Part shown: piece by piece, positions 37,886 to 58,799 of the stretch
Layout: the number at the start of each line of letters is the position of its first letter
Numbering within the stretch: the first letter of the stretch is position 1
Source: Alphaproteobacteria bacterium
Lineage (GTDB): Bacteria > Pseudomonadota > Alphaproteobacteria > DSM-16000 > Inquilinaceae
NCBI GenBank assembly: GCA_028277405.1
Contig: JANQGH010000068.1
Location: 1 to 64,000 of the forward strand
Direction of reading: 5' to 3'
Length of the DNA: 64,000 bases
Made by a program: the position numbers and the translations under genes
The notes under the pieces: generated by a model
What the model saw: the letters and a program-made list of their open reading frames with translations, nothing else
What the model was told of the DNA's origin: nothing
Databases searched by the model: none

Positions 37886-38650
37886 TCAGCTTTTCACCGG
37901 ATCGGCCTCTTTAGTATCGAGCTGCGCCAATGCGGCGGCTCCTGCAGCCTGCACATAGATCCTCGTGGCCCGTTCGGCCCCGACATGATCGCGTGCCGCG
38001 ATCCGATCCACGAGCTTGGCAAGCTCCAGCAGGCTAGCCTCGATCCGGCCAGGTTGGCTCATGGACAGGATGCGCAACATGTTGATCCGAGCGAGTTGTT
38101 GGTGAAGAACCTCGGCAGCGACTTGGTGGTCGGCAACAGCGATCATGTAGCGCAGAAAGGCGGTAATGGCCGTCACCATGACCGCCACGTCACCGGTTTT
38201 GGTGGCCGCGACCACCGCGGCGAAATGACCGCGCAGCTTGTCGATCTGGGCATCGTCGGCAACCTCCAGGAAGGCGCGGACGACAAGCACTTCGAGTTCG
38301 ACGCGGATGTCGTAGATCTCCCGAACCAGCTTGGGCGTGAGGCGCGGGATTCGCAGACCGCAATGGGGGACCACTTCGACCAGCCGCTCGGCCTCCAGTT
38401 GGCGAACGATCTCGCGAACAATCGTCCGGCTTATGGACAGTTCGGCACACAGTTCACGCTCGGTCAGCCGAGCGCCGGGCCTCAACCGCCCTTCGACGAT
38501 CGCGCTACGGATCTTGTCCAGCGCTTGCTCCCGAACCAGTCGGGGGCCGGCCTCGGCAGCCGGTACCGCCTTGTCCAGCGCCGCCGTCGCCCACAGCTGC
38601 GCTGGGTCTTCGCTCTCCCGCCCAGTTGCGGCCGCTTGTTTGCTGTGCAT
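37886..38650 (-). CDS. GntR-family regulator, FadR/FCD type (copy 1)
   Basis: This 254-aa regulator has the GntR winged helix (ALDKIRSAIVEGRLRPGARLTERELCAELSISRTIVREIVRQLEAERLV, positions about 44-92) and an all-helical FCD ligand domain with conserved Arg and His positions (RVELEVLVVRAF, MIAVADHQ). FCD proteins respond to organic acids or sugars. It lies next to the dppDF-like genes and is probably their local regulator; a CATACAATC motif lies 42 bases upstream of its start. Confidence 0.88.
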   Translation of the reverse strand: MHSKQAAATGRESEDPAQLWATAALDKAVPAAEAGPRLVREQALDKIRSAIVEGRLRPGARLTERELCAELSISRTIVREIVRQLEAERLVEVVPHCGLRIPRLTPKLVREIYDIRVELEVLVVRAFLEVADDAQIDKLRGHFAAVVAATKTGDVAVMVTAITAFLRYMIAVADHQVAAEVLHQQLARINMLRILSMSQPGRIEASLLELAKLVDRIAARDHVGAERATRIYVQAAGAAALAQLDTKEADPVKS

Positions 38651-38844: not shown

Positions 38845-39870
38845 TTAGTCGGACTTAAGCGACGCATTAACACAAGCGACGGCGAAATCTCCCGTTCCTT
38901 CGCGCAATGCGGGCACAGCCTGGCGGCAAATATCCGTCGCCATCGGGCAGCGGGGGTGAAAGCTGCACCCCGCCGGCGGGTCGACGGGGTTGGGCGGTTC
39001 ACCCGAAACGACGAGGCGGCGCGGGGCCCGCGCAATCTCAGGATCCAGGTCCAGAACGGACGCGCGCAGCGCCTGCGTATAGGGATGGCGTGGCCGGTCC
39101 AGAACCTCGGCCACCGTCCCGGTTTCGACCACCTTACCCATATACATCACCATCACGCGGTGCGACATGGCACGGACCACGGCCAGATCGTGGGCGATGA
39201 AGACGATTGCCAGGCCAAGCTTGCGCTGCAGATCGATCAGCAGGTTGACCACCTGGGCCTGCACCGACATATCCAGGGCCGACACGGGCTCATCGCAGAC
39301 CAGCACCGACGGTTCGGCGGCCAAGGCGCGGGCGATGCCGATCCGCTGACGCTGCCCGCCGGAAAACTCGTGCGGAAAGCGGCCGGTGACCGCGGCGCCG
39401 AGTCCGACCAGACCCAGCAGTTCTTCAACCCGCTGGCGCCGGGCCAGACCGCGCGCGAGACCATGAACGTCCAACGGTTCTGCCACGATGTCGAGGATCG
39501 TGCGCCTCGGGTTGAGCGATGCGTAAGGGTCCTGGAAAACCATCTGTATGGCGCGCCGCTGCGTCCTGCTGCGGGTGTGGCCGAAGGCTGTCGCGCCATT
39601 CTTTTCTGACTTGTTTGACTCGTCTGACTTACCGGCCGACGGCCTGCCATGGAACCGGATGATCCCGGCATCCGGCCGATCGAGCCCGACAAGCATCCGC
39701 GCCAAGGTCGTCTTGCCCGACCCGCTTTCGCCCACGATGCTCAACGTTTCGCCCGGCGCCACGGCAAGGCTGACGTCGCTTACGGCGTTGAAGCGGCGGC
39801 CGAACAGCGCACCGCCGACGCGGAAGACCTTCTCGAGGGATTCAGCCACCAGAATCGGATCACCCGGCAT
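38845..39870 (-). CDS. Peptide-type ABC ATPase (DppF/OppF-like)
   Basis: This 341-aa ATPase has Walker A GESGSGKTT, a Q-loop VFQDPYASLNP, signature FSGGQRQR, Walker B VLVCDEPVSALD and the C-terminal oligopeptide domain with the Cys-rich GCSFHPRCPMATDIC that holds an iron-sulfur cluster in this family. A charged insertion (about residues 75-100) precedes the Q-loop. The ATG at 39870 overlaps the upstream ATPase end by 11 bases; an earlier start would add 17 residues inside that gene. It pairs with the DppD-like protein to drive the permeases at 42717-44569. Confidence 0.92.
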   Translation of the reverse strand: MPGDPILVAESLEKVFRVGGALFGRRFNAVSDVSLAVAPGETLSIVGESGSGKTTLARMLVGLDRPDAGIIRFHGRPSAGKSDESNKSEKNGATAFGHTRSRTQRRAIQMVFQDPYASLNPRRTILDIVAEPLDVHGLARGLARRQRVEELLGLVGLGAAVTGRFPHEFSGGQRQRIGIARALAAEPSVLVCDEPVSALDMSVQAQVVNLLIDLQRKLGLAIVFIAHDLAVVRAMSHRVMVMYMGKVVETGTVAEVLDRPRHPYTQALRASVLDLDPEIARAPRRLVVSGEPPNPVDPPAGCSFHPRCPMATDICRQAVPALREGTGDFAVACVNASLKSD

Positions 39871-40858
39871 CGATCCGGCCTCCGTCCTCGGTGTTCCGGG
39901 GGTGGTGACAGGCCACAGCAAGGCCGGCGCCGGTCGGCATCAACGGAGGCCTCTGCGCGACGCAAAGGGCGCTGCGCCGGCTACAGCGTGGATGAAAGGC
40001 GCAGCCTTGAGGCGGCGCCACCAGATCGGGCGGCGATCCCCCGATCGGCTTGAGCGCGGCGGCGGCCGATATGCGCGGCGCCGAGGCGAACAGCGCCGAG
40101 GTGTAGGGATGCGCGGGGCGCGCGAACAGCCGCTCAGCCGGCGCTGTTTCGACGATCCGCCCGGCATACATAACGGCCACATCCTCCGCCAGCCGGGCCA
40201 CGACACCGAGATCGTGGGTGATCAGCAGGATCGCCATGTCGAGATCGCGGCGCAGTTCGTCCAGCAGGTCCAATATCTGCGCCTGCACCGTCACATCCAA
40301 TGCGGTGGTCGGCTCGTCGGCGATCAGCACTTCGGGGTTGAGCGCGATGCCGACGGCGATCAGCAGGCGCTGCCGCATGCCGCCGGAAAACTGGTGCGGA
40401 TAGTCGTTGATGCGCCGTTCCGCCGACGGGATGCGGACGCGCCGCAGCAGGTCGACCGCCCGGTCTCTGGCATCCCGCCTGCTCAAGCCTTGGTGAATTC
40501 GAAAAGGCTCGGCCAGCTGGCTGCCGACCGTCAACACCGGGTTGAGCGCCGACAGCGCATCCTGGAACACGAGGCTTATCGCGCTGCCGCGCAGAGTCTG
40601 GCGTTCTTCGGGCGTCATGGTCAGAAGATTGCGTCCGGCCAGGGACAGGCCCTCGGCCGATACCGTCGCGTTGTCGGACGTCACCAGTCCCATGATCGCG
40701 CGCGCCGTGACGGATTTGCCGGAACCGGATTCGCCGACGACGGCCAGCACCCCGCCGCGCGGCAGGGACAGGGAGACATCTGTTACGGCCTTCACCTCGC
40801 CGCGCAAGGTGCGGAAACGGACCGTCAGCCGATCCACCGACAGTGCCGCTTCCTGCAT
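39860..40858 (-). CDS. Peptide-type ABC ATPase (DppD/OppD-like)
   Basis: This 332-aa ATPase carries Walker [11 protein letters not shown]-loop [11 protein letters not shown], signature FSGGMRQR, Walker [13 protein letters not shown] and the late GCAFHPRC cysteine cluster of the oligopeptide subfamily. The ATG at 40858 is preferred: an ATG at 40975 has no spaced ribosome-binding site and would add a low-complexity, Ala/Thr-rich leader encoded by a short tandem repeat (GCTGTCGCA on the plus strand near 40893). The gene diverges from the binding protein. Confidence 0.9.
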
Positions 40859-41053
40859 CTGATCCGCCCTGGCCGATCCGTCAGCCGCCGCTGTCGCAGC
40901 TGTCGCAGCTGTCACCAGGTCGCCCCGCCATCTTCCGAGTTGCTCTTCATCCCGCCCTTTTTTCGCATGTTCCATACCTCGACGATGTCGGTCGGACGAT
41001 CAGGTCCGATGTGCGAACAGCAATGTTGACACGCTCCTTAAGGGCGATCAACA

Positions 41054-41066
41054 TTGTCATACAATC
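41054..41066. promoter_or_regulatory. Candidate GntR operator in the dpp divergent promoter
   Basis: TTGTCATACAA is an inverted repeat (TTGT and ACAA around CAT), and it contains CATACAATC. It lies 28 bases before the binding-protein ATG and between the two divergent transport operons, a good place for the neighbouring FCD GntR regulator to act. Confidence 0.5.
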
Positions 41067-41094
41067 TGGATTCCTCAGCTTTCAGGATGCCGCA

Positions 41095-42708
41095 ATGCCC
41101 CGCCCGAGTTCCGCCGCGTGGACACTCCGCGCCTTGGCCTACACGTTCTTCGCCTTGGCGGTTTTCGCCCTGGCCGGCCCGATGCCCGCCAACGCGCAGG
41201 AGCCGACGCGCCTGGCGGTCGGCACAACCGCGGACGTCGTCAACCTGAACCCTCTGGTCGGTAACAGCCGCTCGGATACCTGGGTGACCAATCTGATGTA
41301 TCCGCGCCTTATGCAGATGAGCGCGAACGGCCAGAAGGAACCCTATGTCGCCACCGATTGGGGGTATTCCGACGATGGGCTGACGGCCTGGATGGAACTG
41401 CGCGACGACATGATGTGGAGCGACGGCGAACCGTTTACCGCCGACGATGTCGCCTTCACGATCACCGCCGTCACCGAGGAAGCGATTGGCATCACGGCCG
41501 GTCTGGTCGGCGGCTCGTTTGAGCGCGCACGCGCCGTGTCGCCGACGCGGGTCGAATTCGACCTGACCCAGAGAGACGGTCAGTTCCTCACGAACATGGG
41601 CTTTTGGATGCCCATCGTGCCGGAACATGTCTTCCCGGAGGTCGGGCAGGTCAGCGAGTTCGCCAACGATTCCGACTGGGTTTCGGCGGGTCCCTTCGTC
41701 ATGACCAGCGTCGAGCGCGGTCAGCGCTATGTGCTTGAGGCGGTCGAGACCTACCCATTTGCCCCAGGGGGCCGCGCGGCGGTCGATGAGGTCGTGTTCC
41801 GCGTATTTCCCGACGTGAACGCCCAGGCGCTGGCCCTGCGGGCGGGCGATCTGGACCTGATCGCCAACGCGATTCCACCGGCCATCGCGCGTGCGTTGTC
41901 AGCCGACCCGTCCATCACCCTGGTCGAGATCCCGGCGCTCGGTTGGGCGCACATGCAATACAATCTGGAACGTCCGCCTCTGGACGATCTCGCCGTCCGG
42001 CAGGCGCTCGCCCACGCGGTCGACTACGAGGCGATCCGGCGGATCGCGTTGCAGGGGCAGGCCGGATCGACCCTGTCGTCGGTCATCTCGCCGGTGCTGA
42101 GTTTCTGGCACGACGATACGATCGAGGAGTACACCTACGACCCTGAGCGCGCCCGCGCCCTGCTCGAAGAGGCCGGCTATACCGACGCCGACGGGGACGG
42201 CTTCTATGACGGTATTACGTTTGGCCTGCTGTACGATCAGGCCGCGGCCGAGATCGCGAACTGGGCCCAGATTGTGCGCGACAGCAGCGCCGAAGCCGGT
42301 ATCGAGATCGAGCTGACCGGGCTGGAGCGCAATACCTATCTCGCGCGGGCCCGCGATCGCGATCACGACATCTACGCCGGCAGTTGGTCGATCATGGAGG
42401 AGCCGGCCGCCTATCTCGACCTCGCCTTCCGCGACGGCGGCTTCATCAACTACGGCAATGTCAGCGACCCTGAGATCGAACGGCTGCTGGACGAGGCGCA
42501 GGCGGCAACATCGCCGGAAGAGGCGTTGGGGCCGGTGCAGGCGATCGCGCGGCGGATCAACGAACAGGTCTACGACAACGTCCTGTACTATCAGGAGTTC
42601 CAGTTCGCCTACAATTCCGATCGCTGGGAAGGCTTCGTCCCGCAACCGTCCGACCTGTTGTCTCTGGTCAATCCACTGTCGCTGGCAAGCGTGCATCCGG
42701 TCGATTAG
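41095..42708 (+). CDS. Peptide-type ABC binding protein (SBP_bac_5), system A
   Basis: This 537-aa exported protein starts at an ATG followed by a signal peptide (AYTFFALAVFALAGPMPANA) with a likely cut after ANA. The mature part has the DppA/OppA plan: RLAVGTTADVVNLNPL, WTDGEPFTADDVAFT-like block (read WSDGEPFTADDVAFT) and VRQALAHAVDY. Ligands of this family are peptides, nickel, glutathione or phosphonates-like amides. The divergent dppDF-like ATPases and the DppBC permeases downstream complete the importer. Confidence 0.92.
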   Translation: MPRPSSAAWTLRALAYTFFALAVFALAGPMPANAQEPTRLAVGTTADVVNLNPLVGNSRSDTWVTNLMYPRLMQMSANGQKEPYVATDWGYSDDGLTAWMELRDDMMWSDGEPFTADDVAFTITAVTEEAIGITAGLVGGSFERARAVSPTRVEFDLTQRDGQFLTNMGFWMPIVPEHVFPEVGQVSEFANDSDWVSAGPFVMTSVERGQRYVLEAVETYPFAPGGRAAVDEVVFRVFPDVNAQALALRAGDLDLIANAIPPAIARALSADPSITLVEIPALGWAHMQYNLERPPLDDLAVRQALAHAVDYEAIRRIALQGQAGSTLSSVISPVLSFWHDDTIEEYTYDPERARALLEEAGYTDADGDGFYDGITFGLLYDQAAAEIANWAQIVRDSSAEAGIEIELTGLERNTYLARARDRDHDIYAGSWSIMEEPAAYLDLAFRDGGFINYGNVSDPEIERLLDEAQAATSPEEALGPVQAIARRINEQVYDNVLYYQEFQFAYNSDRWEGFVPQPSDLLSLVNPLSLASVHPVD

Positions 42709-42716: not shown

Positions 42717-43679
42717 ATGCGCCTGCTCAGCTATGCCAGCCGACGGTTGCTGCGTGGGTTTGCGACCTTTCTGTTTGCGGTAACGATCACCTTCTTCCTG
42801 GTCCGGCTCCTGCCGGGCGACCCCATGCTGGCCATCGCCGCGCCCGGCATGACCGAGGAGTTGCTGGCCCGCCAGATCGCGGATCTCGGCCTCGATCGGT
42901 CGCTGATCGTCCAGTATGTCGCGTATCTGCGGGAACTGGCGCAGGGCAATCTCGGCATCTCGTTTCTGCGGGGGCAACCCGTGTCCGAGGTCCTGATGGC
43001 GCGCCTGCCCTGGACGTTGCTGCTGACCGGATCGGCGCTGTTGGTCACGATCGTGCTGGGCGTGCCCTTGGGCGTCCTGGCTGCCGTGAAGGCACGCGGT
43101 GCCGTGGACCGGCTGGTCCAGATGGTGGGGGTGATCGGCCAGTCGCTGTTCGTGCCCAGCATCGGCATCTTCCTGCTCTACACGCTTGGCCTGTGGCTGG
43201 ACCTGTTTCCGATCGGCAGCGCGGTCGATCCCGACACCCATGGCGTGGCGCGCGCCTTGAGCATCCTGCACCATCTGGCGCTGCCATGCCTGACCTTGGT
43301 GATGGCGCAACTGGCCAGCTACGTGCTGACGCTGCGCGCGACCCTGATCGAATCCCTGGGTGAGGAGTATTGCGACCTGGCCCGCGTCAAGGGCGCGTCG
43401 GAGAGGCGGGTGGTCTGGCAGCACGCCCTGCGCAACGCGCTGTTGCCGACAACCACGCTGGTGGGGCTGCAGATCGGGTTTCTCGTCGGCGGCGCGGTGC
43501 TGACCGAAACCATCTATGCCTATCCCGGCGTTGGCCGCGCCATCTTCGAGGCCGTCGGCCAGCTCGACTATCCGGTGCTGCAAGGCGCCTTCGTCTTGCT
43601 GGCCGCCACGGTCGTTCTGGCCAATCTGTTGACCGATCTGCTTTACGGCCTGCTTGACCCGCGGGTGCGCACGGCATGA
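42717..43679 (+). CDS. Peptide-type ABC permease (DppB-like), system A
   Basis: This 320-aa inner-membrane protein has six membrane helices and the permease EAA loop near the C-terminus (YCDLARVKGASERRVVWQHALRNA positions). The N-terminal helix is followed by the extracytoplasmic domain RLLPGDPML typical of DppB. It begins 8 bases after the binding-protein stop and overlaps the next gene by ATGA. Confidence 0.93.
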   Translation: MRLLSYASRRLLRGFATFLFAVTITFFLVRLLPGDPMLAIAAPGMTEELLARQIADLGLDRSLIVQYVAYLRELAQGNLGISFLRGQPVSEVLMARLPWTLLLTGSALLVTIVLGVPLGVLAAVKARGAVDRLVQMVGVIGQSLFVPSIGIFLLYTLGLWLDLFPIGSAVDPDTHGVARALSILHHLALPCLTLVMAQLASYVLTLRATLIESLGEEYCDLARVKGASERRVVWQHALRNALLPTTTLVGLQIGFLVGGAVLTETIYAYPGVGRAIFEAVGQLDYPVLQGAFVLLAATVVLANLLTDLLYGLLDPRVRTA

Positions 43680-44569
43680 CCGAGGTCACGCAATCCGGCA
43701 TCGCGGCTGAGGAGGTCCAGGCCCCGGCCGATCCCAGCCCCCGGCGCCGGACATGGCGGGCGTTTCGGCAGAACCCACTCGGCATGGGGTCGCTGGCCGT
43801 GATCGCCATTCTCGCCGTTGTGTCGGCGGCCGCTCCGCTGATCGCCGATTTTCCATCGGGCTATGGCGAAGAGATCCTGGTCGGACCCTCGGCTACCCAT
43901 TGGTTCGGCACCGACGAACTCGGCCGCGACATCTTCGCCGAGGTCATCTGGGGCGGCCGCATCAGTATGATCATCGGCTTCGCGGCGTCGTTCCTGGCGA
44001 TCCTGATCGGCGTGACGGTCGGCATCACCGCCTCCTACGCGCCGAAACTGGACCCGCTCCTGTCGATGCTCGTCGACGTCTCTCTGGCCCTGCCGGTTCT
44101 GCCGTTAATGATTCTCGTCGCGGCGCTGGTCGGGCCCAGCGTCGAGACGCTGGTGCTGGTCATCGCCCTGTTCAGTTGGCCCGAGGTGGCGCGCATCGTT
44201 CGGTCTCAGGCGCTGTCCGTCACGCGGTTGCCCTATGTCGACGCGGCCCGCACGATCGGCGGTTCGCATCTGTGGATCATGACCCGCCATCTGCTGCCGG
44301 CTGTGGCGCCGGTGATCGTCGTGGCCGTCGTCCTGACCGCCTCGCGGGCGGTGCTTTCCGAGGCCGGTCTGTCGTTTCTAGGCCTTGGCGACCCCAATAG
44401 CTGGTCCTGGGGCAAGATCCTCTACAACGCCCAGCGGTCCGGCGCGCTGACCATTGCCTGGTGGGCAACCCTGTTCCCCTCCTTGGCGATCCTGCTGCTG
44501 GTGGTGTCGGCCACCCTGGTCTCGATCGCCTACAACGACGCCCGAAATCCCAAGACGAGAGAGGCCTGA
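43676..44569 (+). CDS. Peptide-type ABC permease (DppC-like), system A
   Basis: This 297-aa permease has the N-terminal OppC_N segment (RAFRQNPLGMGSLAVIAILAV), the loop HWFGTDELGRDIFAEVIWGGRIS and the EAA region (YVDAARTIGGSHLWIMTRHLLP). Its start overlaps the end of the partner gene. The polar first 30 residues are cytoplasmic. One base separates its stop from the M24 gene. Confidence 0.93.
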   Translation: MTEVTQSGIAAEEVQAPADPSPRRRTWRAFRQNPLGMGSLAVIAILAVVSAAAPLIADFPSGYGEEILVGPSATHWFGTDELGRDIFAEVIWGGRISMIIGFAASFLAILIGVTVGITASYAPKLDPLLSMLVDVSLALPVLPLMILVAALVGPSVETLVLVIALFSWPEVARIVRSQALSVTRLPYVDAARTIGGSHLWIMTRHLLPAVAPVIVVAVVLTASRAVLSEAGLSFLGLGDPNSWSWGKILYNAQRSGALTIAWWATLFPSLAILLLVVSATLVSIAYNDARNPKTREA

Positions 44570-44570: not shown

Positions 44571-45734
44571 ATGCGCCAGCGGCTTGACCCCGAAATCTAC
44601 GCCGCCTTGCAGGACGATCTGCGTGCCCGCATGGCGGCGGAGGGAGTCGACGCCCTGATCGTGGACGACCACCACGACGTCGCCTACCTGACCGGGTTCT
44701 TCCATTTCGCCAACGAACGGCCGGCCGCGGTCTGGCTGTCGGAGGACGACTGCCTGTTGCTGGTGCCGGCGCTGGAGGCCGATCATGCCCAGCGGCAGGA
44801 CGCCGCCGCCGAGCTTGTGGTCTACGACGAGTACCCTGGCGTCGAGGATCCTTTTGCCGCCCTGTTTCGCCGTGTCGGCCAGGGCGGACGGGCCGCCTAT
44901 TCACCCGGCTCCGCCGCCGGACGCGTCGCGCAATGGGCCAAGCTTGCCCCCCAGATCGACTGGGTGATGGACGACCTGGTCGGTCGCGCGCGCCTGATTA
45001 AGCGGCCCGAAGAGATTGCCCTGCATCGCGAGGCGGCGCGCATATCCGACGCCATGATCGAGGCGGGCTTGTCCCTAATCCGCGAGGCGATCGCCGCCGG
45101 CGACCCGATGCCAAGCGAAGCCGAATTGGCCTCGCACGTCACGAGGCACGGCATCGCCATGATGTATGAAGAGCATGACGATGTCGTCGTCAGTTCGCTG
45201 CTGGCCGGCGGGCTGGTCTATACCGGGCCAAACGCCGCCTACCCCCACGGCCTGCCCGGCGCCACCCGCCTGCAGCCGGGCGACACCTTCATCCTTTCCC
45301 TGGGCTGCTCGGTCGGCGGGCGCTTCGCCGAATCCGAACGCACCTTTGTGTTCGGCGAGCCCAGTGCCGATCAGCGGCGATACCACGAGGTCGCCTCCCG
45401 GGCGCAGCATATCGGCACGGAGGCGCTTGTCGCCGGCGCACTGTGCAACGACGCCAACCGCCAATGCCTCGATGTCATCCGCGATGCCGGGATGGGCCAG
45501 TTTCTGCGCCACCGGCAGGGGCACGGCATCGGCATTTGGCTGCACGAACCGCCTTGGATCGAGGATGGGGACGACACACCGCTCGCTCCGGGCATGGTCG
45601 TGTCGTCGGAACCCGGCCTCTACATCCCCGGCCATGGCGGTTACCGCATTTCCGATACGGTCTTGATCACTCCGGAAGGCCCGGAACGCCTGACCAACCA
45701 TCCCCGCACTTTGGACGAATGCGTGATCGCCTGA
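44571..45734 (+). CDS. M24-fold hydrolase with altered metal site
   Basis: This 387-aa protein has the creatinase-type N-terminal domain and the pita-bread M24 domain of Xaa-Pro peptidases. Of the five metal ligands (D, D, H, E, E) only His (HGIG, about 318) and one Glu (SSEPG, about 347) are in place: the first Asp is Ser243 in ILSLG, the second is Glu254 in RFAESER, and the last Glu is Ser361 in YRISD. A dinuclear metal centre therefore seems impossible. Creatinase and related amidinohydrolases are metal-free members, so a creatinase-like hydrolase is a better guess than a peptidase. It follows the importer genes directly. Confidence 0.8.
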   Translation: MRQRLDPEIYAALQDDLRARMAAEGVDALIVDDHHDVAYLTGFFHFANERPAAVWLSEDDCLLLVPALEADHAQRQDAAAELVVYDEYPGVEDPFAALFRRVGQGGRAAYSPGSAAGRVAQWAKLAPQIDWVMDDLVGRARLIKRPEEIALHREAARISDAMIEAGLSLIREAIAAGDPMPSEAELASHVTRHGIAMMYEEHDDVVVSSLLAGGLVYTGPNAAYPHGLPGATRLQPGDTFILSLGCSVGGRFAESERTFVFGEPSADQRRYHEVASRAQHIGTEALVAGALCNDANRQCLDVIRDAGMGQFLRHRQGHGIGIWLHEPPWIEDGDDTPLAPGMVVSSEPGLYIPGHGGYRISDTVLITPEGPERLTNHPRTLDECVIA

Positions 45735-45798: not shown

Positions 45799-46641
45799 AT
45801 GCTCGTCACCATCAACGATGCCAGCCTGTACGTCGAAGTCTTGGGCGACGATCCCGATGCCCCGGTGATGATCGTCCATCACGGCGCGCCGGGGCTCGGG
45901 GCACACACCGAGCCGAAGGCCGCTTTCGCGCCGTTCTCCGACAAGTTCCGGGTCGTGGTGTTCGATGCCAGGGGCAGCGGCGCCAGCGAAGGCAAGCCGC
46001 CCTACACCCATGAGCAGTGGGCGGCCGACGTCGACGGTCTGCGCGCCTGGATCGGGGCCGAAAAGATCGTGATGGCCGGCGGGTCCTACGGCGGCTTCAT
46101 CGCCCTGGAATACGCCACCCGCTATTCGGATCGCGTGTCGGCGCTGGTCCTGCGCGACACGTCGGCAGACAACTCGCACCGCACGGCCTCGCGCGAGAAC
46201 GCGCTGGCTTCAGCCCGGATCGACGTGGATATCGAGCTGTTCGACCGGATGATGGCCGGCAAGGTGCGCGACAACGAAGACTTCAAGCGCGGGTGGGAGC
46301 ACATCCTGCCGCTCTACGACCATGATCTCGACATGGAGGTCGTGCGCGAGCGGGTCGAACAGACGCCCTACCGCTATGAAACCCACAACTATGCCTTTGC
46401 CGTCAACCAGGCCGACTATGACATCAAAGACAAGCTACCCGCCATCGAGGTGCCGACGCTGGTGACCGTCGGCCGACATGACTGGATCACGCCCGTCGCT
46501 GCGAGCGAGACGATTGCGGACCTGGTCCCCAACTCCGAACTGGTTATCTTCGAGAAATCGGGCCACGCACCGCAATTGGAGGAGCCCGAGAAATTCCAGA
46601 AGATCGTTCGTGATTTCCTCGATCGCGCCTTGGCGGGGTAA
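45799..46641 (+). CDS. Alpha/beta hydrolase, proline-iminopeptidase-like
   Basis: This 280-aa protein has the S33 hydrolase plan: HHGAPGLGAHTE oxyanion region, FDARGSGASEG, the nucleophile elbow GGSYGG, Asp in GRHDWITP and His in KSGHAPQLEEP. The triad is complete. CTGGAGCCACGAG precedes the ATG. Such enzymes release N-terminal proline from peptides or cleave amides and esters. As the last gene of the importer operon, it probably trims the imported substrate. Confidence 0.85.
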   Translation: MLVTINDASLYVEVLGDDPDAPVMIVHHGAPGLGAHTEPKAAFAPFSDKFRVVVFDARGSGASEGKPPYTHEQWAADVDGLRAWIGAEKIVMAGGSYGGFIALEYATRYSDRVSALVLRDTSADNSHRTASRENALASARIDVDIELFDRMMAGKVRDNEDFKRGWEHILPLYDHDLDMEVVRERVEQTPYRYETHNYAFAVNQADYDIKDKLPAIEVPTLVTVGRHDWITPVAASETIADLVPNSELVIFEKSGHAPQLEEPEKFQKIVRDFLDRALAG

Positions 46642-47851: not shown

Positions 47852-49117
47852 ATGGACGCAACCCCCGCCCCGACACCACCAGCGCTGACCGTCAACGGAC
47901 GCCGTTACCGGTTGCCGTCCCGGCCAAGCGTGGTGATCTGCTGGGATGGGTGCGACCCGGCCTACATCGAGGCGGCGGCCCAAACCGGCGTGATCCCGGT
48001 CGTCGAACGCATGCAGAAACAGGGCTTCGACGCGACCGCCCTGGCCACGGTTCCGACTTTCACCAACCCCAACAACATGTCGATCGTCACAGGCGCGCCG
48101 CCTGAAGTGCACGGGGTGTCCGGCAATTTCTACCTGGATCGCGAGACCGGCGAGGACGTCATGATGGTTGACGGCAAGCCGTTGCGGTGCCCGACGATCC
48201 TGGGCGAGTTCTCGCAAGCCGGCGTCAAAGTGGCGGCTGTTACCGCCAAGGACAAGCTGCTCAAGGCCCTGAGCCGGGGTCTGGACGGCATCGCCCTGTC
48301 GGCGGAAAAGGCGGCGGACTGCACGGTCGAGAGCCATGGCATCGCGGACGTGCCGGCCATGGTCGGCCGCCCCACCCCGTCACCCTATTCCGCCGATCTG
48401 TCGTTGTTCGTTCTCGACGCCGGCATCCGCCTGCTTGAGCGGGACGACGCCGACCTGCTGTATCTGTCGCTGTCGGACTACGTCCAGCATATGCACGCGC
48501 CGGGCACGCCGGAGGCCAACGGCTTCATGCAGGCCGTGGATGAGCGCCTTGGCCGCCTGCTCGACCTCGGCGCGATTGTCGGTGTCGTGGCCGATCATGG
48601 CATGAGCGACATGGCGCGCGACGATGACAGCGCCAACGTGCTGTTCCTGGGCGATCGCCTCGACGCGACATTCGGTGCGGGCACGCTGCGGGTCATTTGC
48701 CCGATCACGGACCCGTTCGTGCGCCACCATGGCGCGCTTGGCGGCTTTGTCCGGGTCTATGGCCAGCAGGGGGCGCCTGACCTCACCGAGGTGCTGAACT
48801 TTCTGCGCGCGCTGCCGGAGGTCGAAGAGGCCTTGACCCAGCAGGAGGTCTGCCGCCGGTTCGAGCTGCCGGCCGACCGCGAGGGCGACATCGCCGTCAT
48901 CGCCCGGCCCGGCGTGGCGCTGGGTGCGCATGCGGGCGACCACGACCTGTCGCAGTTGGCCGGCGTGCGCCTGCGGTCCCATGGCGGTCTCGCCGAACGA
49001 GACGTGCCATTCATCGTCTCCGAACCCGTGACGCCGGCCTACCGCGCCAAGGCGGCCGACGCGCTGAACAGCCACGACATCTTCGACTTCGTGCTGAACG
49101 GCGTGGCGAGGCCGTGA
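47852..49117 (+). CDS. phnA: Phosphonoacetate hydrolase
   Basis: This 421-aa enzyme cleaves the carbon-phosphorus bond of phosphonoacetate to acetate and phosphate with two zinc ions. It belongs to the alkaline phosphatase superfamily and the ligands are visible: Asp in CWDGCDP, nucleophile Thr in TFTNPNN, Asp and His in SDYVQHMHAPGT, Asp-His in VVADHGM, and His in RSHGGL. The blocks NNMSIVTGAPPEVHG and LYLSLSDYVQH match PhnA along the whole length. A TTGAAGG ribosome-binding site precedes the ATG. The next gene starts on the last base of its stop. Confidence 0.9.
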   Translation: MDATPAPTPPALTVNGRRYRLPSRPSVVICWDGCDPAYIEAAAQTGVIPVVERMQKQGFDATALATVPTFTNPNNMSIVTGAPPEVHGVSGNFYLDRETGEDVMMVDGKPLRCPTILGEFSQAGVKVAAVTAKDKLLKALSRGLDGIALSAEKAADCTVESHGIADVPAMVGRPTPSPYSADLSLFVLDAGIRLLERDDADLLYLSLSDYVQHMHAPGTPEANGFMQAVDERLGRLLDLGAIVGVVADHGMSDMARDDDSANVLFLGDRLDATFGAGTLRVICPITDPFVRHHGALGGFVRVYGQQGAPDLTEVLNFLRALPEVEEALTQQEVCRRFELPADREGDIAVIARPGVALGAHAGDHDLSQLAGVRLRSHGGLAERDVPFIVSEPVTPAYRAKAADALNSHDIFDFVLNGVARP

Positions 49118-50388
49118 TGCGCCGGTCCGTCATCGTCATCCTGGACGGCCTGCGCCGCGACATGGTGAGCGCGGAGACAACCCCGCGTCTGGCCGAGTTC
49201 GCGCGCTCGGCCACCTGGTTCGACAGGCACCGCGCCGTCTTTCCATCGACGACCCGGGTGTCCTCCGCCTGTATCGCCACCGGGTGTTTCCCCCGCCGGC
49301 ACGAGCTTGCGGGAAACAGCCTTGTCCTGGTCGAAGACGGTCGCCTGACCCTGCATGATGCCGGGCTGCCGACCTTCCTTCAGCACAAGCGGCGCGTAAC
49401 CGGCCGGTCCCTCGGCATGCCGACCTTGGCCGAACGTCTGGCCGACAACGGCGGTGCGATCGTCATGTCGAACGTCTCGCCGGGGGCCGCCTACGCGCAC
49501 GATCCGGACGGGCACGGCCATGTCTACCATCGGGCCGGCAGCTTCGGCCCTGGGCGATCGCCGGTGGCGGAGCCGGATGCCTTGGCCATCGGCCGCGATA
49601 TTGCCGGCGACCGGCAGATGACAAAGCGTTTCGTCGATGAAGTCTTGATGCAAAGACGGCCGGCGCTGGCGGTGCTCTGGCTCGGACATCCCGACACCAC
49701 CCAGCACGCGGTCCCGCTGGGCTCCCCGGCGCATCTCGCCGCCTTGGCGCAGGCCGACGGCCACGCCGGCCAGGTGATCGACGCCGTCGACCGACTGCGC
49801 GACGAAGGCCACGACATTTTGCTGATGGTCGGTTCCGATCATGGCCACCAAACGATCGGCGGATCGGTCGACGTGTCGGCCGCACTGGTCGATGCGCGCC
49901 TGAAGGTGGCGGAGGACTCCGACGATGTGGTGGTGGCCGCCAACGGCACCGCCGCCCTCATCTATGTCGCGCCGGGCGCCCAAGCGCGGACGCCTGAGAT
50001 CGCCGATTTTCTGGTCGCCCGGCCTTGGGCGGAACAAGTTATCGCCGGCGCCGATCTGGCCTCGGTCGGGCAGAACGGAGGCCATGGGCTGGCCGTCGCG
50101 GTCTCCTTGGCCGCCAACGACGAGGCCAACGCGCACGGCGTGCCCGGCACCAGCCTGGTCGCGGCGCCGCGAGGCCACAAGACAGTGCCGATCGGCTGCG
50201 GCCAGCATGGCGGGCTCGGGCGCTACGAACAGGCACCGACATTGATGATCTCCGGTCCCGGCTTCGACGCCGGCACGGTTCGCCAAGTCGACACGAGTCT
50301 CGTCGATCTGGCACCGACCGTCCTGACGCATTTGGGCCTGCCGCATGGCGGGTTGGACGGTCGCCCTCAACAGATGGATCTCAACTAA
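49117..50388 (+). CDS. Alkaline-phosphatase-superfamily phosphodiesterase/phosphonatase-like enzyme
   Basis: This 423-aa protein is in the nucleotide pyrophosphatase/phosphodiesterase branch. The metal and nucleophile residues are all present: VILDGLR, PSTTRVSSA (Thr nucleophile), HPDTTQHA, SDHGHQ and GQHGG. There is no signal peptide, so it is cytoplasmic, in contrast to most relatives. The start ATG overlaps the phnA stop (TGATG). Its substrate is probably a phosphate or phosphonate mono- or diester that enters through the neighbouring importers; that is inference. Confidence 0.82.
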   Translation: MRRSVIVILDGLRRDMVSAETTPRLAEFARSATWFDRHRAVFPSTTRVSSACIATGCFPRRHELAGNSLVLVEDGRLTLHDAGLPTFLQHKRRVTGRSLGMPTLAERLADNGGAIVMSNVSPGAAYAHDPDGHGHVYHRAGSFGPGRSPVAEPDALAIGRDIAGDRQMTKRFVDEVLMQRRPALAVLWLGHPDTTQHAVPLGSPAHLAALAQADGHAGQVIDAVDRLRDEGHDILLMVGSDHGHQTIGGSVDVSAALVDARLKVAEDSDDVVVAANGTAALIYVAPGAQARTPEIADFLVARPWAEQVIAGADLASVGQNGGHGLAVAVSLAANDEANAHGVPGTSLVAAPRGHKTVPIGCGQHGGLGRYEQAPTLMISGPGFDAGTVRQVDTSLVDLAPTVLTHLGLPHGGLDGRPQQMDLN

Positions 50389-50423
50389 CCGGTTCAACCC
50401 ATTGGTGAAGAGGAGCAAAGGCA

Positions 50424-51983
50424 ATGATCAGTTCAACGAAGGTTAGGCGGCACGCGCTGCTGACGGCCTGCGGTAGTCTGTTGCTGGCGTCGTCGGTCAG
50501 TCTTCCGGTGATCGATGCGTCTGGTCAGACGGCCGATGCGCCGGTCCATGGCGGGACCTTGCGGCTCGCGACGCTGGGCCTCGACACGTCCGATCCACAC
50601 CGTCACACGGGCTCGATCGGCGTTCAGCAGGTCTATGCGGAGTCGCTGACCAGCATCGCGCCGGACGGCAGCACGACGCCCTGGCTGGCGGAGAGCTACG
50701 AGGTCTCCGACGACGGGCTGACCTACACTTTCCGACTGCGCGACGGCGTCACCTTTCACAATGGCGACACGCTGACCGCCGGCGACGTGCTGGCGAACTT
50801 CGAGCGGGTCAGGGAGAACGTCGAGGGCGGCTGGCTGGCCAGCGCCATGGGCTTCACCGAGAGCTTCGAGGCGCCGGACGACCGGACCTTCGTCGTGCGC
50901 TTGAGCGAGCCGTACGCGCCGTTCCTGAACCTGATCTCGGAGCTTTGGATCCTGTCCCCGGCCTCGCCCGGATGGGACGAGACGATCACCCAGCCGATCG
51001 GCACCGGCCCGTTCCTGTTCGGCGAATGGATCCCGAACATCAGCCTCGTCGCACCCGCGTTCGAGGGTTACTGGGACGGCGACCTGCCCTATCTGGACGC
51101 CCTGGAATTCAATCTCACCGAACTGTCGGACCCCAGCCTGGCCCTGCGCTCGGGCGATTTGCACATCGCCCCCGTCTCCGGCGACCAGTTGCCGATCATC
51201 GCCGAGGCCGAGGACATCGACATTCAGCGCCTGAAGGACACGAGCTGGTATTTCTGGTCGTTCAACAACCGGTCGCCGCGGCCGCCGCTGGACAATGTTC
51301 GGGTGCGCGAGGCCATCACCTACGCCTTGGACAAGCAGGCCTATATGGCGTTCATCGCCGGCGATCAGGGCATCGTCACCAACCAGATGGTCATCCCCGG
51401 CAACTACTATTTCGACGAGGCGCTGCACGAAGCCGATCAGCACGCCGGGGCCGACTTGGACCTTGCCCGGCAAATCCTGGCCGAAGAGGGTGTCGACCCG
51501 TCCGAGGTGACCCTGGAAGTCGTGTCCTGGCAGTCGCCCTATGCCGAGGTTGCCGTGCAGATGGTGCGCGAACTGGGCTTCGACGTCGAGCACGCCGCCT
51601 TGGAGGATCTCGGCGCGCAGCAGCGCCTGAGCCAGTATGACTGGGACTTGGCCCCGATGGGATCCGGTCCGCGCGCCGATGTCTTCCTGCGCTATGTGCG
51701 CATGATGTCCGATGGGCCCAACCCGGTGCTTTGGGGCGGTGTCCAAGACGAGGCTTATGACCAGACGGTCGCGGCCGCCGTCGCGGAAACCAACCCTGCG
51801 CTTCGCCGTCAGCATTATCTCGACGCCTGGGAGATGGTGATGGACAATTACTGGACCGTCGTTGCCGGTCACGCGCCGACCGTGTTCGGTGTCAGGGACG
51901 AGGTCGAGGGCTTCGAGTTCGGCTTCACCTATGGACCCCATTATGCCGGCGGCGGCGTGGCCCACGCCTGGCTGGCGCCCTGA
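50424..51983 (+). CDS. Peptide-type ABC binding protein, system B
   Basis: This 519-aa exported SBP_bac_5 protein has a signal sequence (RRHALLTACGSLLLASSVSLPVI, cut about residue 35) and the standard blocks GGTLRLATLGLDTSDPHRHT, TYTFRLRDGVTFHNGDTLTAGDV and VREAITYALDKQAY. A TGAAGAGGAGC site precedes the ATG, 35 bases after the phosphodiesterase gene. It is a paralogue of the system A protein but clearly diverged. It serves the permeases and double ATPase just downstream. Confidence 0.92.
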   Translation: MISSTKVRRHALLTACGSLLLASSVSLPVIDASGQTADAPVHGGTLRLATLGLDTSDPHRHTGSIGVQQVYAESLTSIAPDGSTTPWLAESYEVSDDGLTYTFRLRDGVTFHNGDTLTAGDVLANFERVRENVEGGWLASAMGFTESFEAPDDRTFVVRLSEPYAPFLNLISELWILSPASPGWDETITQPIGTGPFLFGEWIPNISLVAPAFEGYWDGDLPYLDALEFNLTELSDPSLALRSGDLHIAPVSGDQLPIIAEAEDIDIQRLKDTSWYFWSFNNRSPRPPLDNVRVREAITYALDKQAYMAFIAGDQGIVTNQMVIPGNYYFDEALHEADQHAGADLDLARQILAEEGVDPSEVTLEVVSWQSPYAEVAVQMVRELGFDVEHAALEDLGAQQRLSQYDWDLAPMGSGPRADVFLRYVRMMSDGPNPVLWGGVQDEAYDQTVAAAVAETNPALRRQHYLDAWEMVMDNYWTVVAGHAPTVFGVRDEVEGFEFGFTYGPHYAGGGVAHAWLAP

Positions 51984-51988
51984 CGCCA

Positions 51989-52909
51989 TTGTCGACCCAC
52001 GACCAAGAGGCGACCCGGTCCGGCTATCCGGGGCCGGGTCGCCCAACCATTGAACAGGGCAGTGGCGGGCGCGCGCGCCGGCTGCCGTTCAGCCTGCTGT
52101 TCGGCCTCGCGATCGTCACGCTGTTCGTGCTTGCCGCCCTGTTCGGCCCGATGCTCGACGGCCAGGACCCGTTTTCGCAAGATTTGTTGAATCGCAATCA
52201 AGGCCCAAGCCCGGCCCACTGGGCGGGGACCGACAATTTCGGCCGCGACGTGCTGTCCCGCCTGCTTTATGGCGCCCGGCTGACGCTGATCGTCGGCGCA
52301 GGCGGTGTGATATGCGCGCTTATCGTCGGCGCCGGACTGAGTCTGACCGCACTGGCGATCGGGCCGTGGCTGGCGGCAGCCGTGTTTGGCTTCATCGATT
52401 TCATCCGCGCCCTGCCCGGCGTTTTGCTGGCCCTGATCCTGATCGTGGCGCTCGGCGCCGGTCTGTCGTCGGTCGTGATCGCCCTTGGCATCGCCTTTTC
52501 GCCCTTCTTCGCCTACATCGCCCGGGCGGCGTGGCGGCGCGAGATGGCGGCCGACTACGTCACCGCCGCGCGCACGTTGGGCGCCAGCCGCCTGCGCATT
52601 CTCTACCGCCACGCCATGCCGAACATCGGCGGCGCGCTGATCACCTTGGCGGCGGTGATCCTGCCGCGCTGCATCGTGACCGAGTCCGTCTTGAGCTTTC
52701 TCGGCCTCGGCGTTTCGCCGGATACCCCGACCTGGGGCCGCATGATCGCCGACGCGGTCCCGCTGGTGGAACGCGCGCCCCACGCGGTTCTGGTGCCGGT
52801 GTTCTGCCTGTCGCTGCTGACGCTTGCCCTGGCCTTGCTGGGCAATCACGTGCGGGCGGCCGTCGACCCGCTGCGCGCCGGCGACCCCAGCGGGAGGCAG
52901 CGATGGTAA
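51989..52909 (+). CDS. Peptide-type ABC permease (DppC-like), system B
   Basis: This 306-aa permease begins with TTG, 5 bases after the preceding stop, and has the OppC_N start (SLLFGLAIVTLFVLAALFGP), HWAGTDNFGRDVLSRLLYG and the EAA loop (YVTAARTLGASRLRILYRHAMP). The order C before B is reversed compared with system A. Its end overlaps the next gene by seven bases. Confidence 0.9.
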   Translation: MSTHDQEATRSGYPGPGRPTIEQGSGGRARRLPFSLLFGLAIVTLFVLAALFGPMLDGQDPFSQDLLNRNQGPSPAHWAGTDNFGRDVLSRLLYGARLTLIVGAGGVICALIVGAGLSLTALAIGPWLAAAVFGFIDFIRALPGVLLALILIVALGAGLSSVVIALGIAFSPFFAYIARAAWRREMAADYVTAARTLGASRLRILYRHAMPNIGGALITLAAVILPRCIVTESVLSFLGLGVSPDTPTWGRMIADAVPLVERAPHAVLVPVFCLSLLTLALALLGNHVRAAVDPLRAGDPSGRQRW

Positions 52910-53817
52910 CCCTGCTGGCAACCGTCCTGATCCATATCGCCCGGGCCGCGCTGCTGGTCTTTGGCGTCACGGTGCTGGTCTTCATCCTGGTCCGGGCGAT
53001 CCCCGGCGATGCGGTCGACGTGCTGGCCATCGAGGGCGGGCTGACCGACAGCCAGGCCGAGGCGATGCGCGCCGGGCTGGGCCTGACCGCGTCATGGCTG
53101 GACCAGTTCACCGCCTGGTGTCTCAGCGCGCTGCGTGGTGAACTCGGCGAGTCGTTACGGTTTCACGTGCCGGTCGCCGATTTGCTGTTGCAGGCCATAC
53201 CGGTCACGCTGGCGTTGGGGGCGGCGAGCCTGGCCACTGGCTTCGTGCTGGCCGTGGCGATCGCCTTGATCGCGACCCTGCGGCCGCGCTCGATCGTCGC
53301 CTCGCTGGTGGACATCTTGAACATCTGGTCGATCGCCATCCCGACCTTTTGCGCCGGTCTGGTTGCGATCCTGGTGTTTTCCCTGTGGCTTGGCTGGCTG
53401 CCGGTGCTCGGCAATTTCCTGGTGCCGGTGATCATCCTGGGCCTCGACGCCGCCGGGCAGATCGTCAAACCCCTGCATGAAGAGATGAAGGAACTGGGCA
53501 CGGCGGTCTACATCCGCACCGCCCGCGCCAAGGGCCTGCATCCGCTGAAGATCGTGATCGGTCACATCTTGCCGGCGGCGGCGCCGGTGCTGCTGGCCAT
53601 GACCGGCCTGGTCGCGGCCTCGTTCATTGGCGGGGCGCTGACCATGGAAGTGCTGTTTGGTCTGCCCGGCGTCGGCTCTCTCGCTTTCAACGCCGTCAAC
53701 GGGCGGGACTATCCGCTGATCCAGGCGGTCGTGCTGTTCCTGGCCGTCGCGGTCATCCTAATCAACGCGTTGACCGATCTGGCCCAGCGCCTGGTCGACC
53801 CGCGACCGGAAAGGTGA
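52903..53817 (+). CDS. Peptide-type ABC permease (DppB-like), system B
   Basis: This 304-aa membrane protein begins MVTLLATVLIHIARAALLVF and continues with VRAIPGDAVDVL; the EAA loop reads YIRTARAKGLHPLKIVIGHILP. It has six helices. The ATG at 52903 lies behind GGGAGGCAGCG and inside the end of the previous gene. A longer frame upstream is only the shadow of that gene. Confidence 0.92.
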   Translation: MVTLLATVLIHIARAALLVFGVTVLVFILVRAIPGDAVDVLAIEGGLTDSQAEAMRAGLGLTASWLDQFTAWCLSALRGELGESLRFHVPVADLLLQAIPVTLALGAASLATGFVLAVAIALIATLRPRSIVASLVDILNIWSIAIPTFCAGLVAILVFSLWLGWLPVLGNFLVPVIILGLDAAGQIVKPLHEEMKELGTAVYIRTARAKGLHPLKIVIGHILPAAAPVLLAMTGLVAASFIGGALTMEVLFGLPGVGSLAFNAVNGRDYPLIQAVVLFLAVAVILINALTDLAQRLVDPRPER

Positions 53818-53825
53818 CCCGCGCC

Positions 53826-55484
53826 ATGGCCGCCCTGCTTGACGTTCGCGACCTCGGCATCGCCTTTCCGGCGCCAAACGGCATGCTCCGGGTGGTCGAT
53901 CGGGTGAGTTGGCGGCTCGACGCCGGCCAGACCCTGGGCATCGTCGGCGAGTCCGGTTCCGGCAAGTCGCTGACCGGCCTGGCCTTGTTGCGCTTGCTGC
54001 CGGCCGCGGCGCGCCTCGACCCGGCGAGCCGCATTCGCTACCGCGACACCGATCTGCTCGACCTGTCGGAGGCGGACATGCGGTCCCGGCGCGGCAGTGG
54101 CCTGGCCATGATCTTCCAAGAGCCGATGGCCAGCCTGCACCCGTTGCTGACGGTCGGCCGCCAAGTGGTCGAAAGCATCCGACGCCACACGGACTGCTCG
54201 GCGCTGGAAGCCCGCCGCAAGGCCGCAGCACTGTTCGACGAGGCCGGGTTGCCGGACCCCGGCCGGATCGGTCGGCGCTATCCCCATGAACTGTCGGGCG
54301 GGCAGCAGCAACGGGTCATGATCGCCATGGCCCTGGCGGGCAATCCCGACATCCTGATCGCCGACGAGCCGACGACCGCGCTCGACACCACCGTTCAAGC
54401 CCAGATCCTGGACCTGCTGCGCTCGCTTCAGGCCATGCGGGGCCTGGCCATGGTGTTCATTTCCCACGATCTCGCCGTAGTCACGTCCATGGCGCACGAG
54501 GTCATGGTCCTGCGCAGTGGCCGTGTGGTGGAGAGCGGTTCGACCGGGGTCGTTCTCTCCGCACCGGAAAGCACCTACACGCAAGGCCTGGTCGCCGCCC
54601 GCCGTCGGCTCAGCGTCAGAGCGCCGGCCGCCACCCCGAGCCGGTCGGTGGGACCGGAATGCGCGCTGGAGCTCCGCGACCTGTGCGTCGACTATCCCGG
54701 TCGTGGCCCGTTCGCCCGACCGGTCCGCGCCGTTGACCGGGCATCTTTGACGTTGAGCGCCGGCCGTGCCCTGGGGCTGGTCGGTGAGTCCGGCAGTGGC
54801 AAAAGTACCATCGGCAAGGCCATCGTGGGGTTGGCACGGCCGACGAGTGGTGACCTGACCCTGTTCGGCCGCCCGCTGGCCGGCGACGGCTGGCGACTTT
54901 CGCGGGCCCTGCGCCGCCGTTGCCAAATCGTCCTGCAAAACCCCTATGGCGCGCTGAACCCGCGCCTGACCATCGAGCAAGCCTTGATCGAGCCATTCGT
55001 CACGCTCGGCCTGAAGCCGCCGAACGGCCGGCAGTCAAGGATCGTCGCCGGCTTGGAGGAGGTCGGCCTGGATGCCGGCTTCCTTGATCGCTACCCCCAT
55101 CAGCTCAGCGGCGGCCAGCGGCAGCGCGTGTGCATCGCGCGGGCACTGATGTCCGAACCCGGCCTCTTGATCTGCGACGAAATCGTCTCCGCGCTCGACG
55201 CCAGCATCCAGTTCCAGGTTCTTGATCTCTTGAACCGGATGCGGACGGCGCGTGGGCTGGCACTGCTGTTCATCGGACACGACCTCGAGGTTATCCGGTA
55301 CATTGCCGATGATATTGCCGTGATGCATCGCGGCACGATCGTGGAACACGCACCCGCCGACAATGTGCTCGACACGCCCCAGCACCCGCACAGCCGCGCC
55401 CTGATCGATGCCATGCCCCGCCTCGATGTCACCGCGCCGTCCGAGGCCGAAGACGGCTGGCGGGCGCAACATCGCTCGGCTTGA
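53826..55484 (+). CDS. Fused double ABC ATPase (DppD-DppF type), system B
   Basis: This 552-aa protein joins both ATPases of a peptide importer. The first cassette has [27 protein letters not shown] and [12 protein letters not shown] (residues 1-260). The second has [27 protein letters not shown] and LLICDEIVSALD (about 285-540), where the usual Pro after Glu is Ile. The Cys-rich iron-sulfur tails of separate DppD/F are missing. A GTG at 53814 would overlap the permease by 4 bases; the ATG four codons later is preferred. Gene order B-C-ATPase shows a complete second system. Confidence 0.92.
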   Translation: MAALLDVRDLGIAFPAPNGMLRVVDRVSWRLDAGQTLGIVGESGSGKSLTGLALLRLLPAAARLDPASRIRYRDTDLLDLSEADMRSRRGSGLAMIFQEPMASLHPLLTVGRQVVESIRRHTDCSALEARRKAAALFDEAGLPDPGRIGRRYPHELSGGQQQRVMIAMALAGNPDILIADEPTTALDTTVQAQILDLLRSLQAMRGLAMVFISHDLAVVTSMAHEVMVLRSGRVVESGSTGVVLSAPESTYTQGLVAARRRLSVRAPAATPSRSVGPECALELRDLCVDYPGRGPFARPVRAVDRASLTLSAGRALGLVGESGSGKSTIGKAIVGLARPTSGDLTLFGRPLAGDGWRLSRALRRRCQIVLQNPYGALNPRLTIEQALIEPFVTLGLKPPNGRQSRIVAGLEEVGLDAGFLDRYPHQLSGGQRQRVCIARALMSEPGLLICDEIVSALDASIQFQVLDLLNRMRTARGLALLFIGHDLEVIRYIADDIAVMHRGTIVEHAPADNVLDTPQHPHSRALIDAMPRLDVTAPSEAEDGWRAQHRSA

Positions 55485-55889: not shown

Positions 55890-57122
55890 TCAGATGACCT
55901 TGTCGGCCTCCAACTGCGCGAGTTCCGCGTCACTCAGTTTCAGTTCGTCCCGATAGATCGCCTTATTGTGACCGCCGATCTCGTCGGGACCCAGCCAGGC
56001 AATCTCGCTTGGCGTCTCTGAAAGCTTCGGCGCGATGCCGGGCACCGCGATGTCGCCGAAGCGCGGGTCGGGCATTCTCATGACCATGTCGCGGGCCTGA
56101 AAGTGGGGGTCCTGGGCGATGTCGTCGATCGCGTAAATCGGGCCGCAGACGACGCCGTGCCGCTCCAGGCGCTCGGTCAGTTCGGGCATCGAAAACTGGG
56201 CGCTCCACTCGGCGATCAGGCCGTCCAGTTGCGTGGCGTTTTCACCGCGCGCCTTGTGATCGCTGTACAGCGGATCATCGGCCAGCTCGGGGCGCTCCAT
56301 GGCCTCGCAAAGACGGCGGAACATGGTGTCGAGGTTGGCGGCGATGACGATGTATTTGCCCTCGCGCGTCGGAAAGATGTTCGACGGCGACACGTTCGCC
56401 AGTCCGGTGCCCGACGGTTTGCGGATGACCCCGAGCTTGTCGTATTCCGGCAAGGTGCTTTCGAGCATCGAAAAGCAGCTCTCGGTGATCGCCGCATCGA
56501 TCACCTGCCCCTTGCCGCCACCGCCAGCGTCGCGCCAATAAAGCGCCATGAGAACGCCCTGGGTCGCAAACAGGCCCGTCAGCGTGTCGCCCAGCGAGAT
56601 GCCGAAGCGCGGCGGCGGGGTATCGGGAAAGCCGTTGATGTAGCGGATACCGCCCAACGCCTCGCCGACACTGGCAAAGCCCGGCTTTTCGGCATAGGGG
56701 CCGGTCTGGCCGTAGCCCGACACCCGGGCGATGATCAGCCCCGGATTGATCGCGTGCAGGGCGTCCGGGCCCAGGCCCCACTTCTCCAACGTGCCCGGCT
56801 TGAAATTCTCGACCAGCACGTCGGCGGTCTCCAGCAGCCGAAGCACGAGGTCGCGGCCCCTCGGATCACGCAGGTTCGCCGTGACGCTCTTTTTGTTGCG
56901 CGCCAGCACCGGCCACCACAGACACTTGCCCTCGTAGCGGTGATGGCCCCATTCGCGCATCGGGTCGCCCTTGCCCGGCGCTTCGACCTTGATGACCTCC
57001 GCCCCGAAATCGGCCAGCCGCGAGCCGACAAACGGCCCGGCGAGGAGTTGGCCCATCTCGATCACGCGCACGCCGGCCAAGGGCCCGCTGGTGCGACCCT
57101 CACTCTCGGCCTGCGTGTTCAT
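55890..57122 (-). CDS. Family III CoA-transferase (CaiB/BaiF)
   Basis: This 410-aa enzyme moves CoA between organic acids. The hallmarks are GVRVIEMGQLLAGPFVGSRLADFGAEVIKVE at the start, NLRDPRGRD, VLVENFKPGTLEKWGLG, and the catalytic Asp in ISLGDTLTGLFA. It should form interlocked dimers in the cytoplasm. Its ATG overlaps the stop of the upstream hydrolase (ATGA). Substrates cannot be predicted; an activated acid that the hydrolase neighbour releases or handles is likely. Confidence 0.92.
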   Translation of the reverse strand: MNTQAESEGRTSGPLAGVRVIEMGQLLAGPFVGSRLADFGAEVIKVEAPGKGDPMREWGHHRYEGKCLWWPVLARNKKSVTANLRDPRGRDLVLRLLETADVLVENFKPGTLEKWGLGPDALHAINPGLIIARVSGYGQTGPYAEKPGFASVGEALGGIRYINGFPDTPPPRFGISLGDTLTGLFATQGVLMALYWRDAGGGGKGQVIDAAITESCFSMLESTLPEYDKLGVIRKPSGTGLANVSPSNIFPTREGKYIVIAANLDTMFRRLCEAMERPELADDPLYSDHKARGENATQLDGLIAEWSAQFSMPELTERLERHGVVCGPIYAIDDIAQDPHFQARDMVMRMPDPRFGDIAVPGIAPKLSETPSEIAWLGPDEIGGHNKAIYRDELKLSDAELAQLEADKVI

Positions 57123-57946: not shown

Positions 57947-58043
57947 GATTGGCTTCCCTGACGCTGCACCTGGTTCGGGATGATCGGAGCACCTGTTCGA
58001 CGGCGGCGTGGCCATCTGGTTTGCGCACTGATCTATGGTAAAA

Positions 58044-58243: not shown

Positions 58244-58291
58244 ATATAGAGCCATTCCATCAAGAGAACCTGAGCAAACTGCGCGACGTGG

Positions 58292-58794: not shown

Positions 58795-58799
58795 CAAGC

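Follow-up and report, generated by a model that had tools for sequence, protein, structure and literature searches.

What chemistry can be expected of a protein that keeps the pita-bread fold of the M24 metallopeptidases while most of the metal ligands are replaced? Metal-less M24 enzymes are already known in creatinase and DoeA. The 64,000-nucleotide stretch of alphaproteobacterial DNA analyzed here (hereafter, the window) encodes an M24B protein that raises this question, and we compared it with prolidases, creatinase and DoeA in sequence, predicted structure, phylogeny and gene context.

The metal ligands of the M24B protein

The M24B protein contains the catalytic pita-bread domain (PF00557, 156 bits) and a Creatinase_N domain (PF01321, 52 bits). 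An alternative TTG start at 44454 was rejected; the ATG at 44571 fits the orthologs and an upstream AGAGAGG stretch. Among the NCBIfam models, those of prolidases score highest (PepQ_Arch, 143.8 bits against a cut-off of 630), and no equivalog fits the protein. Public records label such proteins "Xaa-Pro peptidase family protein", which is probably wrong for this family.

The metal ligands of E. coli PepQ are D246, D257, H339, E384, and E423 (PMC4213023). Ser243, Glu254, His318, Glu347, and Ser361 of the M24B protein fall exactly on these published residues in the alignment, and we therefore regard the column assignment as right. The sequence-only reading had stated that Ser243, Glu254, and Ser361 replace Asp, Asp, and Glu while the remaining His and Glu stay, and the alignment with PepQ bears out both points; the two residues that stay are His318, the His of the GHG motif, and Glu347. 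The resulting pattern, S243-E254-H318-E347-S361, stands against D-D-H-E-E in all 33 ordinary M24 rows of the alignment, which were picked by that very pattern, and the five-ligand set required of M24B metallopeptidases is thus not present. Other residues are kept, namely H226, E256, H314, H325, R359, and R50, and Glu254 and Glu256 lie together in an E254-S-E256-R-T motif.

Among the three replacements, the change of Asp to Glu254 is conservative and preserves the carboxylate, which is lost only at S243 and S361. Judged by residue identity, Ser, Gly, or Ile at position 243 together with Ser, Ala, or Ile at position 361 cannot complete a two-metal centre. A functional Xaa-Pro dipeptidase with two metals, Ser or water taking the place of the lost carboxylates, would agree with the prolidase models as the best NCBIfam scores and with the conserved proline pocket described below. 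However, every family member lacks the carboxylate at two positions, one of them that of the bridging Glu, and we regard this explanation as very improbable. Collectively, the residues make a normal two-metal prolidase, and prolidase activity of the M24B protein, unlikely. The earlier statement that an ordinary Xaa-Pro dipeptidase is excluded holds reasonably well for an enzyme with two metals but goes too far as a whole, because E254, H318, and E347 could hold one metal and the substrate-contact residues of aminopeptidase P (APP) are all retained.

The proline pocket is kept

In E. coli APP, His350, His361, and Arg404 hold the prolyl ring or contact the substrate (PMC4404410). These residues, which the sequence-only reading had not noted, correspond in the alignment to H314, H325, and R359 of the M24B protein, which are invariant across the seven-row ortholog alignment. 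PepQ and APP, both of the M24B type, are also the best sequence matches by E-value. They differ from the M24B protein at the ligands, three of the five being replaced and two of these without a carboxylate. From these alignments, the frame of the pocket is that of a prolidase, whereas the metal centre is not.

Because E254, H318, and E347 are kept in every family row, including those that lack E256, and because M24 enzymes can work with one metal, a mononuclear metalloenzyme is a serious rival explanation, which we consider possible though not probable. Such an enzyme would retain the tight (His) metal site, have lost the second site, and act as an amidase or as a dipeptidase for an unusual dipeptide. 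In E. coli MetAP, for example, stimulation is already maximal with a single equivalent of Co or Fe (cited in PMC2814137). The intact Xaa-Pro peptidase pocket and the M19 and M20 dipeptidase genes near the M24 gene in relatives also fit this explanation. In contrast, the bridging Glu of the centre is absent (S361), the methylene added by the change from Asp to Glu may displace this carboxylate, and none of the structure and sequence matches was recognized as a solved M24 peptidase with an S-E-H-E-S ligand set.

Comparison with creatinase and DoeA

Creatinase was represented by L069, which matches PDB 1chm over the full length (E 5.6e-237) and is offset from the published numbering by +2. Through this reference, H226, S243, E254, E256, H318, E347, and S361 of the M24B protein map onto H232, N249, A260, E262, H324, E358, and H376 of creatinase, whose catalytic roles we take to be those given by Coll et al. 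1990. The His-Glu-Glu core of creatinase (H232, E262, and E358) thus has its counterparts in H226, E256, and E347; similarly, His324, Arg64, and Arg374 have theirs in H318, R50, and R359. In contrast, creatinase reads N-A-H-E-H at the ligand positions, its Arg335 and His376 have no counterpart (S361 occupies the His376 position), and it does not share the prolidase residues His314 and His325 that the M24B protein keeps. Identity to creatinase is 22–26%.

DoeA, the ectoine hydrolase (PDB 6twk), shares the fold, is likewise without the ligands of a two-metal centre, and keeps the pocket His of the H226 column. However, its ligand positions read E-P-Y-M-T, without the GHG His and without E256, and the M24B protein reaches 52 bits with the NCBIfam DoeA equivalog, against a cut-off of 613. 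Membership in creatinase or DoeA was rejected by the ligand residues, the model score, and the trees.

An AlphaFold2 model built from seven alignment rows has a pLDDT of 90 and a pTM of 0.90. In the Foldseek comparison of this model, prolidases lead by E-value, while the highest query TM score belongs to creatinase (EC 3.5.3.3; PDB 1chm and 7yto), at 0.90 with an rmsd of 2.3–2.4. Most prolidases score 0.76–0.85 and DoeA 0.79–0.83; part of the gap between creatinase and these enzymes in this model comparison may come from chain length.

A tree of all columns joins the M24B family to creatinase and the ENERT proteins (95/89). When the fourteen active-site columns are removed, the family forms one clade (97/94) and creatinase groups with DoeA, away from the family (93/90). 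A quick tree with added Deinococcus and haloarchaeal rows gives the family clade a support of 95. An AU test in which creatinase was held with the M24B family did not reject that placement (p 0.33). The proposed phylogeny with creatinase, DoeA, and prolidases thus yielded a separate clade in three trees, with a sister placement of creatinase that shifts; kinship with creatinase, as in the first tree, is not claimed. Because creatinase groups with DoeA, the Glu common to creatinase and the M24B family may be convergent or coincidental, and the likeness of Glu256 to creatinase Glu262 may reflect either common descent or convergence. The sequence-only reading had pointed to creatinase-like chemistry on a C–N bond or to a new activity. 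Creatinase-like C–N chemistry is a reasonable reading and has more in its favor than that reading drew on, namely Glu256, which it had not noted and with which the core is complete, and the TM score of 1chm. Creatinase or DoeA proper is not supported, since the ligand patterns differ and the family forms its own clade.

A lyase acting on a C–N (or C–S or C–O) bond, or another non-hydrolytic enzyme on the pita-bread fold, was also considered. The DMSP lyase DddP shows that the M24 fold can carry a lyase (PMC4108388), with a lower fold match to the M24B protein (4s01, TM 0.79). However, DddP retains its metal ligands and the M24B family does not, and the neighboring genes encode hydrolases; we consider this explanation unlikely.

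Distribution and conservation of the family

Nine orthologs with 43–57% identity were found in Actinomycetota, Bacillota, Chloroflexota, and Alphaproteobacteria. Relatives came from Allonocardiopsis, Bacillota, Chloroflexota, and Culexarchaeota in the genome scan and from Terrarubrum, Neorhizobium galegae, Deinococcus, and haloarchaea in the plasmid search. S-E-H-E is present in all ten members of the ortholog group, and position 361 is Ser in seven and Ala in three (Ala361 in Neorhizobium). Set against the ordinary M24 rows, and with the dN/dS value given below, this consistency shows that the replacements are no chance change in a single gene. In the wider family, which includes Deinococcus and archaea, E254, H318, E347, and H226 are found in 22 of 22 rows. 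The pattern is G-E-H-E-S in Culexarchaeota, Deinococcus, and Haladaptatus pallidirubidus and I-E-H-E-S in two haloarchaeal proteins. A G-E-H-E-I sub-branch, formed by a paralog from the same genome (L023) and its relative L024, keeps E254, H318, and E347 without Glu256.

The genome of the window holds two further ligand-deficient M24 genes: L023 (G000:C87:481204-482304), which lacks the second Glu, and L008 (G000:C39:36497-37642), which reads F-E-H-E-S and lies within another Dpp-importer operon. Neorhizobium galegae HAMBI 540 carries two tandem M24 copies (L030 8803-11161), of which a heterodimer is conceivable; in HAMBI 1141 (L031 9989-11330), the second copy is a C-terminal remnant of at most ~47 residues.

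The close form is rare in the phylum of the window: a search of 299 sampled genomes at E 1e-50 turned up, apart from the two genes of the window genome itself, a single distant relative (35% identity). The patchy distribution points to horizontal transfer. The dN/dS between two Neorhizobium galegae genes of the ortholog group is ~0.18, and the gene is therefore under purifying selection. A pseudoenzyme or a binding protein without catalysis has precedents in non-peptidase M24 members such as the Ebp1/PA2G4-like proteins (named in PMC3888471). However, pocket residues that are invariant across bacterial and archaeal phyla, purifying selection, and placement in catabolic operons leave this explanation with very little probability. 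Our literature searches found no description of a family with an S-E-H-E-S-type ligand pattern, and as far as these searches show, both the pattern and the family are apparently undescribed.

Gene neighborhood

The M24B gene lies in a module with a Dpp-type importer and an alpha/beta hydrolase (Table 1), and the stop codon of the DppC-like permease directly precedes its start. The role of the adjoining GntR/FCD regulator in the module is suggested by its position only.

Table 1. The M24B gene and the surrounding module in the window; identities are to the genes of loci L009, L028, and L010
Feature	Position	Strand	Remarks
GntR/FCD regulator	37886..38650	-	adjoins the module; weak match to phnR_burk, below cut-off
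DppF-like ATPase	38845..39921	-	identity 61% L009, 57% L028
DppD-like ATPase	39860..40975	-	divergent from the binding-protein gene; identity 60% L009, 62% L028
Substrate-binding protein, Dpp/Opp-type ABC importer (SBP_bac_5)	40924..42708 (start approximate)	+	identity 58% L009, 53% L028
DppB-like permease	42717..43679	+	identity 67% L009, 72% L028, 54% L010
DppC-like permease	43676..44569	+	identity 69% L009, 71% L028
M24B pita-bread protein	44571..45734	+	387 aa, ATG-to-stop ORF; PF01321 and PF00557
Alpha/beta hydrolase, proline-iminopeptidase/esterase-like	45799..46641	+	conserved neighbor of the M24B gene; GGSYGG at 94-99; triad Asp and His apparent by eye

The seven-gene module of importer, M24 protein, and alpha/beta hydrolase recurs in Allonocardiopsis (55–69% identity) and in Terrarubrum (53–72% identity), where the hydrolase is present in two copies and the binding protein lies on the opposite side. 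A Bacillota MAG keeps the binding protein, the permeases, the M24 protein, and the hydrolase, and adds an M20 and an M19 peptidase. Two Deinococcus plasmids carry, in this order, an importer, an M19 (membrane) dipeptidase, an alpha/beta hydrolase, and the M24 protein. Because the Deinococcus importer is only 28–35% identical to that of the window, the hydrolase–M24 pair looks like the core. The Neorhizobium M24 genes are surrounded by a different Dpp importer and by AstE/AspA-like, amidohydrolase, and hydantoinase/M20 genes. These neighborhoods share the theme of importing and degrading small compounds that resemble peptides or amides.

Elsewhere in the window, positions 47852-55484 encode PhnA (phosphonoacetate hydrolase, 584 bits, cut-off 408), then another phosphodiesterase-like enzyme, and one more Dpp-type importer, with its binding protein at 50424-51983, a permease at 51989-52909, and ATPases up to 55484. 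Together they may take up a peptide-like compound that bears a phosphonate or phosphodiester group. Positions 14300-21026 (DUF1826, a Zn-dehydrogenase, a CobW-family GTPase, and cysteinyl-tRNA synthetase) resemble a zinc-starvation cluster. The region 22197-30293, with a transposase, an HNH endonuclease, a phage-type integrase, a lower GC content (0.58–0.60), and no tRNA found, is likely a mobile island adjoining the studied region. Finally, a CoA-transferase III, an alpha/beta hydrolase, a GH38 alpha-mannosidase, and a GntR/FCD regulator lie at 55890-62940, all on the minus strand.

Proposed function

From the conserved residues, the separate clade, and the operon, we infer, with about an even chance of being right, a hydrolase that works without metal, keeps the prolidase pocket, and applies creatinase-like acid–base catalysis to a C–N bond of an imported dipeptide-like compound. 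In this mechanism, His226 (creatinase His232) would activate water or shuttle a proton, the scissile C–N group would be held and polarized by Glu256 (creatinase Glu262) together with Glu347 (creatinase Glu358), and His318 and Glu254 would complete the site. Arg50, presumably contributed by the other subunit as in creatinase, would bind the carboxylate or ring end of the substrate together with Arg359, His314, and His325. The substrate is predicted to be small, carboxylate-bearing, and peptide-like; it would enter through the linked Dpp-type importer and be processed jointly with the linked alpha/beta hydrolase, to which some genomes add an M19 or M20 dipeptidase. The guanidine alkaloid galegine, suggested by the Neorhizobium galegae orthologs, was dropped as a substrate because archaea, Deinococcus, and soil bacteria carry members of the family as well. 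Three observations weigh against the metal-free hydrolase: the residues that the L023/L024 sub-branch keeps in spite of the missing Glu256 suit a metal triad equally well, creatinase Arg335 and His376 lack counterparts, and creatinase groups with DoeA in the tree with the active-site columns removed.

On a broader and more doubtful view, this family of bacteria and archaea may have lost its two-metal centre in an event separate from the losses in creatinase and DoeA, acquired the catalytic Glu that creatinase also has, and kept the prolidase pocket; its members would then be metal-free hydrolases of the amide or peptide bonds of unusual dipeptides, served by their own importer and partner hydrolase. 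The metal-free hydrolase would represent a case of a metallopeptidase pocket turned to metal-free chemistry with the substrate frame kept. Moreover, the compact and conserved module of importer, alpha/beta hydrolase, and M24 protein would offer an entry to an uncharted nutrient pathway.
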